This document shows, one piece after another, positions 31,144 to 35,258 of a stretch of DNA of 64,000 nt. The first letter of the stretch is position 1. Each line of letters begins with the position of its first letter. A program made the translations under genes and the position numbers. Under the pieces are notes generated by a model. That model saw only the letters and a list, made by a program, of their open reading frames with translations, was not told the origin of the DNA and ran no database searches. Source of the DNA: Candidatus Tectimicrobiota bacterium (lineage in GTDB: Bacteria > Tectomicrobia > Entotheonellia > Entotheonellales > Entotheonellaceae); contig BPKO01000014.1 of the NCBI GenBank assembly GCA_026005175.1, forward strand, positions 1 to 64,000. Direction: 5' to 3'.

Positions 31144-32380
31144 ATGACCACGGTCCACGTCAACGGTCGCACGTATCGCCTGCCGCAGTGCCCTACGGTG
31201 CTGGTGTGCATTGACGGCAGTGCCCCCGAGTACTTCAGCGTGGGGTGGCAGCGTGGCCAGCTGCCCACCCTGCGGCGCTTTCGCGAGCAGGGCGTCTATG
31301 CCCTGGCCAAGGCGGTGGTGCCGACGTTTACCAACCCCAACAACCTTTCCATTGTTACCGGGGCGCCGCCGGCCGTCCACGGCATCAGCGGCAACTACTT
31401 CCTCGACCCGGCCACGGGACAAGAAGTGATGATGAACGAGCCGCACTTTCTGCGCGCCGAGACGATTCTGGCCGCCCTGTCGCGCTGCGGCGTGCGCGTG
31501 GCGGTGGTGACGGCCAAAGACAAGCTGCGCCGTCTGCTGGGGCACGGCCTGCAAGGGGGGATCTGCTTTTCGGCCGAAAAGGCGCACGCAGCCACCCTGG
31601 CCGAAAACGGCATCGAAGGCGTCAATGCCCTGGTGGGCTGGGAGACGCCGGAGGTGTACTCGAGCCAGCTCAGCGCCTTTGTCATGGAAGCGGGGCTACG
31701 CCTCTTGCAAACGCAGGCGCCCGACCTCCTCTACTTGTCGCTCACCGACTACGTGCAGCACAAGCATGCGCCCGGAGAGCCAGAGGCAGACCGCTTCTAT
31801 GCCATGCTCGACGACTACTTTGCCGCTTTTGACCGCCTCGGCGCCGTGGTGGGCATCACCGCCGATCACGGCATGAACGACAAACACACCGCCACCGGCG
31901 AGCCCAACGTGCTCTACCTGAGTCCGCTGCTTGAGAGCTGGTTGGGCGCGGGCAAGGCGCGAGTGATCTTGCCGATCACCGATCCCTACGTGGTGCATCA
32001 CGGCGCTCTGGGCTCTTTTGCTACGGTCTATCTGGCGCCAGACGTGGACGTCACGGCGGTGGTGGAGCGGCTGCGCCGCCTTGAGGCTGTCACTTACGTC
32101 GGCACCCGCGCCGAGGCCAGTCAGGGCCTTTGCTTTACCTGCCGATCGCATCGGTGACGTGGTGGTGATCAGCGACCGCCACACGGTGCTTGGCAAGGCG
32201 CCGGCCGACCACGACCTCAGCCTGCTTGCAGGCCGCCTGCGCTCGCACGGCGGCCTGGCCGAGCAAGAGGTCCCCTTCGTGCTCAACCGTCCCTTGCACG
32301 AGGCCTATCGCCACCGGCTGTCGGCGGAGCTGTGGAACTTTGACCTCTTTGACTTTGCCCTTAACGGGATTGTGCTTTAG
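31144..32380 (+). CDS. phnA: Phosphonoacetate hydrolase, frameshift near the 3' end
   Basis: The encoded protein matches the alkaline-phosphatase-superfamily enzyme that splits the C-P bond of phosphonoacetate to acetate and phosphate. Diagnostic parts are VLVCIDGSAPEYF (metal Asp), VPTFTNPNNLSIVTGAPP (Thr nucleophile and Asn), YLSLTDYVQHKHAPGE (Asp and His) and ITADHGMNDKH (Asp-His). The C-terminus (FALPADRIGDVVVISDRH, HDLSLLAGRLRSHGGLAEQEVPFVLN) is in another frame after about 32115-32132. One surplus base explains the shift and gives about 411 residues, the family length. AGGAG-like purines precede the ATG. Confidence 0.87.
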
Positions 32381-32412: not shown

Positions 32413-32418
32413 TATAAT
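32413..32418 (+). promoter_or_regulatory. Candidate -10 element of the coiled-coil gene
   Basis: A perfect TATAAT at 32413-32418 lies 19 bases before the ATG at 32438. No good -35 is seen at 17 bases. An in-frame ATG at 32417 overlaps this box and is therefore unlikely to be used if the promoter is real. Confidence 0.4.
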
Positions 32419-32437
32419 GGAAGGGCAGGAGGAAGCC

Positions 32438-33616
32438 ATGCCCTTTACCGATGAAGACTTCCAGGAGCTTATTCGGCTCATCGAAACGCACCCCGAGTGG
32501 CGTGCGGAGCTGCGCCGTCTTTTGCTCACCGACGAGCTCCTCGCCCTGCCGGGTCAACTGGCGGCGCTGCGCCAGGAGACGGAAGAGCGCTTCCAGCAGT
32601 TGCTGACAGCTCTAGAGCAGCTCGTGGCACAGATGACGTCTCTGGCGGAAGCGCAGCGAGAGACCGAGTCGCGCCTGGCGGCGCTGACGGCGCGGGTAGA
32701 GGCGCTGGCGGCGCGCCTGGAAGCGCTCGCAGCACGGGTCGAAGAGCTGGCGGAAGCGCAGCGAGAGACCGAGTCGCGCCTGGCGGCGCTAACGGCGCGG
32801 GTAGAGGCGCTGACAGAGCGGGTAGAGGCGCTGGCCGCGGCACAGCAGCAAACCGAGGCGCGTCTAGAGGCGCTGGCGGAAGCGCAGCGAGAGACCGAGT
32901 CGCGCCTGGCGGCGCTGACGGCGCGGGTAGAGACGCTGGCGGCGCGCCTAGATGCGCTGACAGAGCGGGTGGAAGAGCTGGCGGAAGCGCAGCGAGAGAC
33001 CGAGTCGCGCCTGGCGGCGCTGACGGCGCGGGTAGAGGCGCTGACAGAGCGGGTAGAGGCGCTGGCCGCGGCACAGCAGCAAACCGAGGCGCGTCTAGAG
33101 GCGCTGGCGGAAGCGCAGCGAGAGACCGAGTCGCGCCTGGCGGCGCTGACGCGCACGGTCCAGGCGCTGGTGATCGATGTCGGCGAGCTCAAAGGCGACA
33201 GCCTGGAGCGCCGCTATCGCGAACGGGCAGGGGCGTACTTTGCCCGCCTGCTTCGCCGGCCGCGGCTTTTGCCCGAGGAGGAGCTCGAAGCGGTGCTGGA
33301 AACCGCCGTGGCACGTGGCCTGCTCAGCGAAGCCGAAGCCCACGACGTCACTTGGGCCGACTTGCTCGTGCGCGGCAGGCGCCGCGACGACGATGCCGAA
33401 GTGGTGCTGGTGGTGGAAGTGTCGTGGGGCGTTGGCCCTCACGACGTGGAACAGGCCGCCCAACGCGCTGCCCTGCTCAGCCGCGCTGGGTTGCCTGCCC
33501 TGCCCGTCGTTGCCGGCAAAACCATCACGCCGGAAGCCGCCCGCCTGGCGCAGGCACGCCAAGTGTGGCAGGTGCTCGACGGCCAGATGGTCGTGCCTCC
33601 TTCCGATTCGCCCTGA
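32438..33616 (+). CDS. Coiled-coil repeat protein with PD-(D/E)XK-like C-terminal domain
   Basis: A 392-residue protein. The N-terminal 60 residues are helical. Residues about 68-238 form a long heptad coiled coil built from near-identical blocks that begin LAEAQRETESRLAALTARVEAL; blocks alternate 35 and 42 residues (5 and 6 heptads). The C-terminal domain (YRERAGAYFARLLR ... EAHDVTWADLLVRGRRRDDDAEVVLVVEVSW) has the arrangement of a PD-(D/E)XK nuclease fold as in DUF3782-type proteins, but the usual ExK reads EVS, so catalysis is doubtful. The start at 32438 follows GCAGGAGGA. Function is unknown. Confidence 0.75.
   Translation: MPFTDEDFQELIRLIETHPEWRAELRRLLLTDELLALPGQLAALRQETEERFQQLLTALEQLVAQMTSLAEAQRETESRLAALTARVEALAARLEALAARVEELAEAQRETESRLAALTARVEALTERVEALAAAQQQTEARLEALAEAQRETESRLAALTARVETLAARLDALTERVEELAEAQRETESRLAALTARVEALTERVEALAAAQQQTEARLEALAEAQRETESRLAALTRTVQALVIDVGELKGDSLERRYRERAGAYFARLLRRPRLLPEEELEAVLETAVARGLLSEAEAHDVTWADLLVRGRRRDDDAEVVLVVEVSWGVGPHDVEQAAQRAALLSRAGLPALPVVAGKTITPEAARLAQARQVWQVLDGQMVVPPSDSP
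32642..33151 (+). repeat. In-gene tandem repeat, 231-base unit
   Basis: A conserved segment of about 48 bases starts at 32642, 32747, 32873, 32978 and 33104. Intervals are 105, 126, 105 and 126 bases, so the true unit is 231 bases (77 codons), present twice plus a partial third copy. All intervals are multiples of 21 bases, which keeps the heptad register. Confidence 0.9.
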
Positions 33617-33654: not shown

Positions 33655-34224
33655 TCAGGTGTCGTAAGCGCCAAGGCTCTGCATGAAGCGGTGCTTGATG
33701 TAAGTGGGGCTCTTGGGCGGGCGTGCCGTGGCTTGCTGGTCGTCGACGCGCGCCACGATGATCCAGGGCCCCGGCGTGGCCATGGCCTGGAGAAAGGCCT
33801 GCTCAAAGGCTTCCTGCGTGTCTACGGCAACGACGCGCTCAAAGCCCGCCCCGCGGGCCAGCTGCGCCAGGTCGGCGCGAAAGGCGGTGTGCGTCGGCTG
33901 GCCGCCGGTGAGGGCGAACTGGCGGTTGTCCCAGATGACGTGGATGAGGTTCTGGGGGGCCCGCGCGGCTGCCGTGGTCAGGGCGTTGAGGTTCATGAGC
34001 AGTGCGCCGTCGCCGTCGAGCACGATGACTTTCTGCGCCGGGCGTGCCATGGCCAGCCCCAGCCCCATGGAGGCCGCCATGCCCATGGAGTTCCACATGT
34101 AAAAATTCTGCGGGCGATCCCCGGCGGCAAAGAGGTCGAACTTGGGATTGCCCAGCGAGGCAATAATGGGCTCGTCGTGTACTTGGGCAACGATGAAGCG
34201 CGTGGCGCGCAGGCGGTTGATCAT
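33655..34224 (-). CDS. TPP-dependent decarboxylase, TPP-binding (beta) subunit
   Basis: A 189-residue protein equal to the C-terminal TPP-binding half of phosphonopyruvate or sulfopyruvate decarboxylase. The TPP/Mg motif is LDGDGALLMNLNAL...VIWDN (GDG ... N). The upstream NFYMWNSMGMAASMGLGLAMARPAQKVIVLDGDG is typical of ComE/Ppd beta parts. The partner alpha-like subunit ends 5 bases before this start on the same strand. Together they would decarboxylate a 3-phosphono- or 3-sulfo-pyruvate. The nearby phosphonoacetate hydrolase gives mild support for a phosphono substrate, but sulfopyruvate is equally possible. Confidence 0.85.
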   Translation of the reverse strand: MINRLRATRFIVAQVHDEPIIASLGNPKFDLFAAGDRPQNFYMWNSMGMAASMGLGLAMARPAQKVIVLDGDGALLMNLNALTTAAARAPQNLIHVIWDNRQFALTGGQPTHTAFRADLAQLARGAGFERVVAVDTQEAFEQAFLQAMATPGPWIIVARVDDQQATARPPKSPTYIKHRFMQSLGAYDT

Positions 34225-34229
34225 CGCGG

Positions 34230-34745
34230 TTACCTCTCGTCTTTCCAGCCTGCCAGCTGGGTGGAAATGAGCACGGCAACGGGCTGTTCGGCGCTGTACG
34301 CCAGCTTCAAGGCGCCGGCGACCACCGTCGGTACTTCCGGGGCGTAACGCAGCACAAACGTGGGAATGTGCAGGGCGGCAAAGAGAGCCGGCAACGCCTG
34401 CCCCAGCGGCACCTGGGCGGCGTTGAATTCTCCGAGCTCTCCGCGCCAGCCAATGAACATGGGCAGCGGCACCTGGTAAGGGATGGCCAGCGAGGCCAAG
34501 GCGTTGAGGGCGTTGCCCACGCCGGCGGTGGGCATGAGCAGCGCGCCGCGCGCCCCGCCCATGTACTGGCCGGCGACCACCCCCACGCCTTCTTCCTCGC
34601 GCGCCAGGGGCAGAATGTCAAAAAAGGGATCCTGGCGCGCCAGGCGCAAGATCTGCTCGCCAATGGCGTCGGGGACGTAGCTGAGAAAGCGAATCCGATA
34701 CGCTTTGAGCTGCGCAATGATGTGCTGGGGCCAAGCCGTCTCCAT
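34230..34745 (-). CDS. TPP-dependent decarboxylase, PYR-domain (alpha) subunit
   Basis: A 171-residue protein equal to the N-terminal pyrimidine-binding half of phosphonopyruvate/sulfopyruvate decarboxylase. The catalytic Glu lies in LPLAREEEGVGVVAGQYMGGARGALLMPTAGVGNALNAL, the hallmark of this family. It continues with PLPMFIGWRGELGEF. The two subunits are on separate genes, as in ComD/ComE, rather than fused as in Ppd. It starts 11 bases after the OsmC-like stop and is followed by the beta subunit, forming a three-gene operon. Confidence 0.85.
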   Translation of the reverse strand: METAWPQHIIAQLKAYRIRFLSYVPDAIGEQILRLARQDPFFDILPLAREEEGVGVVAGQYMGGARGALLMPTAGVGNALNALASLAIPYQVPLPMFIGWRGELGEFNAAQVPLGQALPALFAALHIPTFVLRYAPEVPTVVAGALKLAYSAEQPVAVLISTQLAGWKDER

Positions 34746-34756
34746 GGGCGTTGTCC

Positions 34757-35230
34757 TTACCCCTCTTCCAGCTCCAAAGCGGTGGTGATGGCAATGCAGC
34801 CTCGCAAAGTGCGGGCCACCGGGCAGTAGTCGGCGTGGATGCGGTGGGCGCGCTCTGCCGCCTCGCGCTGCGCCGGGTCGAGCTTGAGCCGGTAAGTGAC
34901 GTGAATGCGGCGAATGACCAGGACGTTGCCGTCTTTTTCGATCTCCCCGCGGGCTTCGGCGCTCAGGCGCCCTTCCCCTGCTGCGATGCCGCGCGCTTCC
35001 AGCGCGCCTCCCAGAGTGCCGGTGAGTCAGCCGGCGGTGGCGGCCACCACGTAGTCAAGGGTGGTGGCGTGCGGCTCGTGTTCCTGCATGTTGACGCCAT
35101 AGTGGGCAGCGACTTCCGAGTGCACGCTAAAAAGCACCGGCTGCGCTTCTTGCGGCAGATAGGCCCGTCGCAGCGGCCCCTTGACGCGCTCGATGCGCAC
35201 CCGCGAGGTGTATACGACTTGCGAATCCAT
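34757..35230 (-). CDS. OsmC-family protein, probable selenoprotein with in-frame TGA
   Basis: The frame from 35230 encodes a 157-residue OsmC/Ohr-like thiol peroxidase if TGA at codon 68 (35029-35027) is read through. Residues 1-67 end with LDYVVAATAG and the sequence resumes as LTGTLGGALEARGI; in OsmC proteins the peroxidatic Cys occupies exactly this position (AGC-LT-like). The second conserved cysteine, Cys136, lies in HADYCPVARTL, 68 residues later; E. coli OsmC has 66 between its pair. No frameshift is needed. A SECIS-like hairpin follows the TGA. Sec replacing the peroxidatic Cys is the best reading; a nonsense mutation or base error is the alternative. It heads an operon with the split TPP decarboxylase. 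Confidence 0.8.
34991..35007 (-). promoter_or_regulatory. SECIS-like hairpin downstream of the in-frame TGA
   Basis: In the mRNA sense GCGCGC-UGGAA-GCGCGC forms a perfect six-base-pair stem with a five-base loop. The loop starts 25 nt after the UGA, and G is the second loop base. This agrees with the published bacterial SECIS model: loop 16-37 nt from UGA and a G among the first two loop bases. Confidence 0.6.
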
Positions 35231-35258
35231 ATCGTCTCCTCCATGACCCTGTAGGGCG

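Follow-up and report, generated by a model that had tools for sequence, protein, structure and literature searches.

An OsmC-like gene containing an in-frame UGA codon

The window, a stretch of 64,000 nucleotides from a Candidatus Tectimicrobiota bacterium (contig BPKO01000014.1), carries on its minus strand an OsmC-like coding sequence (34757-35230) that starts with ATG at 35230-35228, is preceded at a distance of 5 nt by a Shine-Dalgarno-like GGAGGAG (35236-35242, identified by inspection of the sequence), and ends with UAA at 34759-34757. Codon 68 (35027-35029, minus strand; position 69 of P0001) is an in-frame UGA that, on the basis of the TGA/Cys comparison of homologues given below, is probably read as selenocysteine (Sec). 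Translation from 35230 to 34757 with TGA taken as U encountered no further stop and yielded a protein of 157 residues with the Sec motif U-L-T-G-T. The gene matched the OsmC family PF02566 (E value of 1.8e-14; 54.4 bits, with a Pfam gathering cut-off of 27.5), and a 75% identical homologue with TGA was present in another genome of the same class. Sec and a second Cys (codon at 34823-34825, minus strand; position 137 of P0001), which is presumed to be the resolving residue, were both invariant in 15 of 15 alignment rows.

The predicted structure of the gene product (pLDDT 86.8) retrieved OsmC/Ohr chains by Foldseek; the best match was 2onf, followed by 1ukk, and the matches also included 1nye (Escherichia coli OsmC) and dihydrolipoamide-bound Ohr. 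Identities to the solved OsmC/Ohr structures were 10 to 23%. Sec lies in a long helix (residues 58-80) of the predicted model; the structural matches, together with the invariant Sec and second Cys, agree with an OsmC/Ohr fold equipped with two redox residues. As described in PMC8945050, Ohr and OsmC reduce peroxides by using two Cys residues that form an intramolecular disulfide, which is then reduced by lipoylated proteins. The window protein resembles the OsmC/Ohr/YhfA thiol peroxidases treated in that source in its fold, in the placement of its reactive residue in a long helix, and in its conserved second Cys, but possesses Sec where those enzymes have the peroxidatic Cys. By analogy, we infer a peroxidatic role for Sec68 and a resolving role for Cys136. 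We also considered membership in NF041052 (OsmC_like_Se), a model of OsmC-related (seleno)proteins that aligns over the same domain; this assignment was rejected, as the window protein scored 15.7 bits and the best of 16 scanned proteins scored 28.0 bits, both below the cut-off of 95. No NCBIfam cut-off was reached by members of this branch where tested.

The Sec gene is located 11 nt upstream of a pair of ORFs (33655-34745, minus strand) resembling the alpha (133.1 bits; cut-off 147.95) and beta (169.0 bits; cut-off 221.5) subunits of sulfopyruvate decarboxylase, and both ORFs also resemble phosphonopyruvate decarboxylase. Near this pair, positions 31144-32157 (plus strand) encode phosphonoacetate hydrolase PhnA (467.1 bits; cut-off 407.55), and the three genes possibly form a phosphonate or sulfonate catabolic set. 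A coiled-coil ORF (32417-33616, plus strand) contains a 231-bp tandem repeat (32642-33151; 2.2 copies with 96% match) that is built of 42-bp units. We did not find a conserved neighborhood of the Sec-OsmC gene; the widest neighbor cluster was seen in 12 loci from a single lineage, and the 14 largest clusters exclude the window.

Conservation of the UGA codon and presence of the Sec machinery

An initial scan of contigs, using search patterns derived from the query itself, provided 80 loci; together with L015 and the window, 82 of 82 sequences had TGA at the aligned codon. Because the patterns were query-derived, we added even draws of whole genomes from the phyla of G017 (301 genomes; the locus from this source, L030, is from Thermoflexus, Chloroflexota), Geobacter argillaceus (G042; 247 genomes), an Acidobacteria metagenome-assembled genome (G035; 247 genomes), and a Nocardiopsaceae metagenome-assembled genome (G041; 296 genomes). 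In each of the first three draws, every match of at least 60 bits that spanned the site had TGA (29, 24, and 24 matches, respectively), and the fourth draw provided 31 matches with TGA and six, from four genomes, without it. The class to which one of these four genomes belongs was then sampled through 199 genomes, which yielded additional Cys forms. In total, 219 distinct genes spanned the site: 207 scoring at least 60 bits and 12 weaker matches, all 12 of which were Cys forms. The aligned codon in the 207 stronger homologues was TGA in 183, TGC in 23, and TGT in one, and conservation of TGA extended over many bacterial phyla. This pairing of 183 Sec codons with 24 Cys codons at a single site is the pattern expected of a selenoprotein gene. 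Two loci were irregular: the Sec-OsmC copy L222 (G1081:C1:3821626-3822025) was matched as three pieces in different frames and looks frameshifted, and L111 (G334) has two in-frame TGA codons within the match.

A tree of 115 representatives, constructed with the site blanked, required two changes to account for the 97 Sec rows and the Cys rows. Nine nearer Cys rows formed one group (SH-aLRT 83) and nine distant Cys rows formed another; many forks in this tree are unresolved and its root is uncertain, and the order of the Sec and Cys states is not given by it.

The genome that contains the window also encodes the machinery expected for Sec insertion. On contig C3, genes for SelA (637.6 bits) and SelB (391.7 bits) adjoin one another, and tRNA-Sec (76.5 bits) is found with them within approximately 10 kb. 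Of 50 genomes carrying the Sec gene (50 of the 80 loci were examined), 47 had a SelB match above the cut-off. In the class that holds both forms of the protein, SelB was above the cut-off in six of eight Sec-form genomes versus one of 22 Cys-form genomes; the two Sec-form exceptions perhaps reflect incomplete assemblies. Three more Cys-form genomes exhibited hits of 210 to 231 bits, just under the SelB cut-off, that may be pieces of SelB.

Geometry and folding of the hairpin after the UGA codon

The hairpin (34991-35007, minus strand) begins 19 nt after the UGA at 35029-35027 and is itself coding sequence, specifying GALEAR. Its 5′ arm GCGCGC (35002-35007) and 3′ arm GCGCGC (34991-34996) enclose an apical UGGAA (34997-35001). 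These features agree with the sequence-only reading, which had reported a perfect six-base GCGCGC stem with a UGGAA loop, a distance of 25 nt from the UGA to the loop, and G as the second loop base. In addition, U35001 and A34997 are able to pair, leaving a GGA triloop (35000-34998); inclusion of this closing pair leads to a 7-bp stem with a spacing of 26 nt and a free energy of −11.2 kcal/mol.

The published bacterial SECIS (bSECIS) constraints, as printed in PMC13188914, were coded by hand for hairpin scoring. That consensus specifies a loop of 3 to 9 nt, a stem of 4 to 16 bp, a spacing of 16 to 37 nt, and a minimum free energy (MFE) of −7.5 or lower, with a G in the first two loop positions that is often followed by G or U. 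The window hairpin conformed to the printed model in every respect: loop and stem size (7 bp with GGA, or 6 bp with UGGAA), loop G (in GGA), spacing (25 nt for the 5-nt loop or 26 nt for the triloop), and MFE (−11.2 kcal/mol). Hairpins conforming to the model were found in 166 of 182 Sec genes (23% of codon shuffles passed) versus four of 24 Cys genes (14% of shuffles); one of the 183 Sec genes was not shufflable. The spacing was 26 nt in 125 of the 182 Sec genes and 19 nt in 30 of them.

Folding of 60 nt revealed a competing register. In the MFE structure, the GC stem was displaced by two bases and enclosed the loop UGGAAGC, at −21.4 kcal/mol compared to −21.0 kcal/mol when the original register was forced, and the pair probability of the original register was 0.41. 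The corresponding values were 0.99 over the first 45 nt, 0.96 to 0.99 in two shorter fragments (0.78-0.81 for the closing U-A), and 0.28 to 0.45 in fragments reaching 48 nt or beyond. The original register is the minor one over 60 nt and prevails when the first 45 nt or short fragments are folded; UGG is located at the hairpin tip in both registers. A more stable fold without a G-bearing apical loop, which the earlier reading had named as evidence against a SECIS element, was not observed, the sole competitor, favored by 0.4 kcal/mol across the 60 nt, being the slid register of this hairpin, in which G is still the second loop base. A scan of the 64-kb window against Rfam provided no match.

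Conservation of the stem and constraint on its codons

Codon shuffles within each gene, which keep both the protein and the codon composition, were compared with the natural sequences. The exact 6-bp stem was present in 117 of 144 genes of group A (the Sec group of the window, of which 144 of 145 genes entered this comparison) versus 7.5 expected from the shuffles, in eight of nine genes of group Y (35-42% identity to the window) versus 0.8 expected, and in none of the 24 Cys homologues, for which 0.6 was expected. In groups A and Y together, 133 of 154 Sec genes had GGA, GGC, or GGG as the loop triplet. The stem and the loop G, whose lack of conservation in Sec-containing homologues the sequence-only reading had named as a refutation, are retained in most of them.

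Codon choice was sharply restricted along the stem in group A. Ala at U+8 and U+11 was encoded by GCG in 243 of 274 cases, compared with 736 of 2212 at other Ala positions; Leu at U+9 was encoded by CTG in 131 of 145 genes versus 611 of 1428 elsewhere; and Arg at U+12 was encoded by CGC or CGT in 139 of 145 genes and never by CGG, a codon used for 496 of 1567 other Arg residues. High-ranking conserved codons also occurred outside the stem (Ile ATC at U+41 and U+88). Most Cys forms (L214-L219, L224-L239, L245, and L246) contain TLKAR or ALKAR where the Sec forms have ALEAR or a near variant. This difference in residues suggests that the RNA stem, rather than the enzyme, may fix some of the residues following Sec.

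Base changes within the stem also point to pairing. All six stem pairs were individually able to form in 89 to 99% of the 96 distinct sequences from group A. Stem pair 5 was G-C in 81 of these sequences and the compensatory A-U in six, whereas in group Y it was C-G in four of six; the closing pair of group A was U-A in 48 and U-G in 45 (93 of 96 sequences). The covariation score over 93 sequences was 0.243 versus a shuffle mean of 0.196 (sd 0.004), the paired fraction was 0.960 versus 0.938 in the shuffles, and zero of 500 shuffles reached either value. Groups A and Y contained 102 distinct sequences, of which these 93 were used, nine slid-register fits having been dropped beforehand, which favors the main stem, and the shuffle control ignores relatedness. 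With so little variation in the stem, the covariation is modest. The comparison of homologues called for in the earlier reading did, therefore, reveal a compensated pair (pair 5) and a score above 500 of 500 shuffles, albeit a modest one from a test that ignores relatedness and excludes the slid sequences.

The conserved letters might alternatively reflect constraint on the protein (GALEAR) combined with codon bias, rather than RNA structure, in which case the UGA could still encode Sec while the SECIS element lies elsewhere. The near fixation of ALEAR in group A and the GC-rich composition are compatible with such an origin, yet shuffles with the protein and codon usage held fixed generate 7.5 stems where 117 are found, Arg at U+12 is never CGG, Sec groups with other residues (ULLGT, UMYGT, and UMMGT) make their hairpins from different bases, and Cys homologues with similar residues have no stem. 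We regard this explanation as very unlikely.

Chance expectation for the hairpin

Judged from the window sequence alone, the hairpin barely exceeds chance. Perfect 6-bp Watson-Crick stems with a 5-nt loop occur 25 times in the 64-kb window, and a model hairpin of at least 6 bp lies 16 to 37 nt downstream of 4.5% of 9132 sampled minus-strand positions. The exact stem arose in 2.0% of 5000 codon shuffles of the window gene, an equally good model hairpin was generated in 13% of 100 such shuffles, and the 60-nt fold was ordinary when compared with dinucleotide shuffles (z of −0.26). Single-sequence folding was rejected as proof of a SECIS element in view of this z value and the competing register. 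The caution in the sequence-only reading, that chance hairpins are common in GC-rich sequence and that the hairpin is support rather than proof, was well founded given the z value, the 13% of shuffles, and the 4.5% of positions.

The z value and the 4.5% of positions would be compatible with a chance GC-rich hairpin in a gene whose UGA is a genuine stop, a sequencing error, or the mark of a pseudogene. Against that account stand TGA in 183 of 207 homologues from many phyla, the excess of the stem (117 of 144 versus 7.5, with none in 24 Cys genes), and the restricted codons; by these sequence comparisons it is already refuted by conservation, and we consider it extremely improbable. That the UGA is read as some other amino acid, by a recoded genome or a UGA suppressor, is suggested by the open frame alone and is next to negligible in likelihood, as all 24 close non-TGA homologues have TGC or TGT and SelA, SelB, and tRNA-Sec are present.

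Slid, relocated, and weakened hairpins

In 13 of 145 group A genes (L046-L050, L071, L072, L077, L086, L191, L197, L204, and L206), some of them from SAR202, the stem takes a variant form (GNGCN, 5-nt loop, NGCNC) whose 3′ side is shifted by one base and which displays its own U-A and C-G exchanges. The loops of this variant are CUUGA, CUGGA, or CUCGA, and 11 of the 13 genes depart from the loop-G rule; these account for 11 of the 14 genes, among 144 in group A, that did not conform to the bSECIS model. The 29 genes of group D (UMMGT), most of them from the Geobacter phylum, were folded separately and stand outside the covariation test; they possess a different hairpin, CUGGCCA-CGGUGC-UGGCCGG, located approximately 19 nt downstream of the UGA.

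Neither the main stem nor the slid variant was present in 14 of 145 group A genes, Geobacter-type genes among them. An alternative 9-bp hairpin is possible in some Geobacter-type genes; this is weak evidence because a similar one is possible in the Cys genes L214, L232, and L236. The contig NZ_VLLN01000026.1 of Geobacter argillaceus contains two Sec-OsmC copies (L126 and L154) along with SelB, and the main stem is weakened in both copies (L076 and L090 in the stem comparison). Inspection by eye of some homologues suggested a possible extension of the lower stem, in which CCGGC would pair with GCCGG.

Discussion

The hairpin is, with high probability, a bacterial SECIS element that directs the reading of the UGA as Sec in a selenoprotein gene of the OsmC/Ohr superfamily. 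We make this assignment because relatives in many phyla keep the hairpin and Cys versions lack it. The SECIS interpretation put forward in the earlier reading is supported by the conservation of the UGA, the stem in 117 of 144 genes versus 7.5 expected, its absence from all 24 Cys homologues, the locked codons, and the Sec machinery; what had been a suspicion from a single sequence is now a well-supported SECIS and selenoprotein call.

From the known biology of such elements, SelB carrying GTP and Sec-tRNA would bind the G-bearing tip of the hairpin and deliver Sec to a ribosome stopped at UGA codon 68, after which translation would continue through the stem, itself coding for GALEAR. The product would be an OsmC-type peroxidase, by inference from related enzymes for both its chemistry and its reductant, in which Sec replaces the peroxidatic Cys, and the conserved second Cys would form a selenenylsulfide with Sec during turnover.

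Both bSECIS elements and OsmC-like selenoproteins are already known. Three Sargasso sequences with the motif UXXT and 10 Cys forms are given in PMC1088965, five GOS sequences in PMC2398784, and a row for OsmC-like selenoproteins appears in the reviews PMC9312934 and PMC13188914. As presented in PMC1088965, PMC2398784, and PMC13188914, those proteins share with the window gene the PF02566 domain, Sec within the OsmC domain, and a downstream bSECIS with G in the apical loop. They differ in the published motif and counts: the motif here is U[LM]xGT rather than UxxT, with G at +3 in 183 of 183 Sec genes, and the published sets are small and contain more Cys than Sec forms, compared with 183 Sec versus 24 Cys genes here. 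What is unusual in the present case is an OsmC branch that is mostly Sec. In the open-license literature, we found no paper describing this Sec-OsmC branch, including its occurrence in SAR202.

We lean modestly toward the broader view that these genes constitute a distinct OsmC branch in which Sec is the rule across many phyla, and in which a coding SECIS element dictates residues of its own helix (ALEAR versus mostly TLKAR) and has slid or moved between groups, including into a slid CUUGA/CUCGA form that breaks the loop-G rule; the branch would fall outside NF041052, the only NCBIfam model for Sec-OsmC. If so, the slid CUUGA/CUCGA form would escape a standard bSECIS search. The window gene is better annotated as a single Sec protein of 157 residues than as two fragments, and since the family is large, mostly Sec, and below the NCBIfam cut-offs where tested, its members are likely to be mis-annotated. 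The natural series of stems (main, slid, relocated, and lost in the Cys forms) offers a ready set for examining the tolerance of SelB for the hairpin tip.
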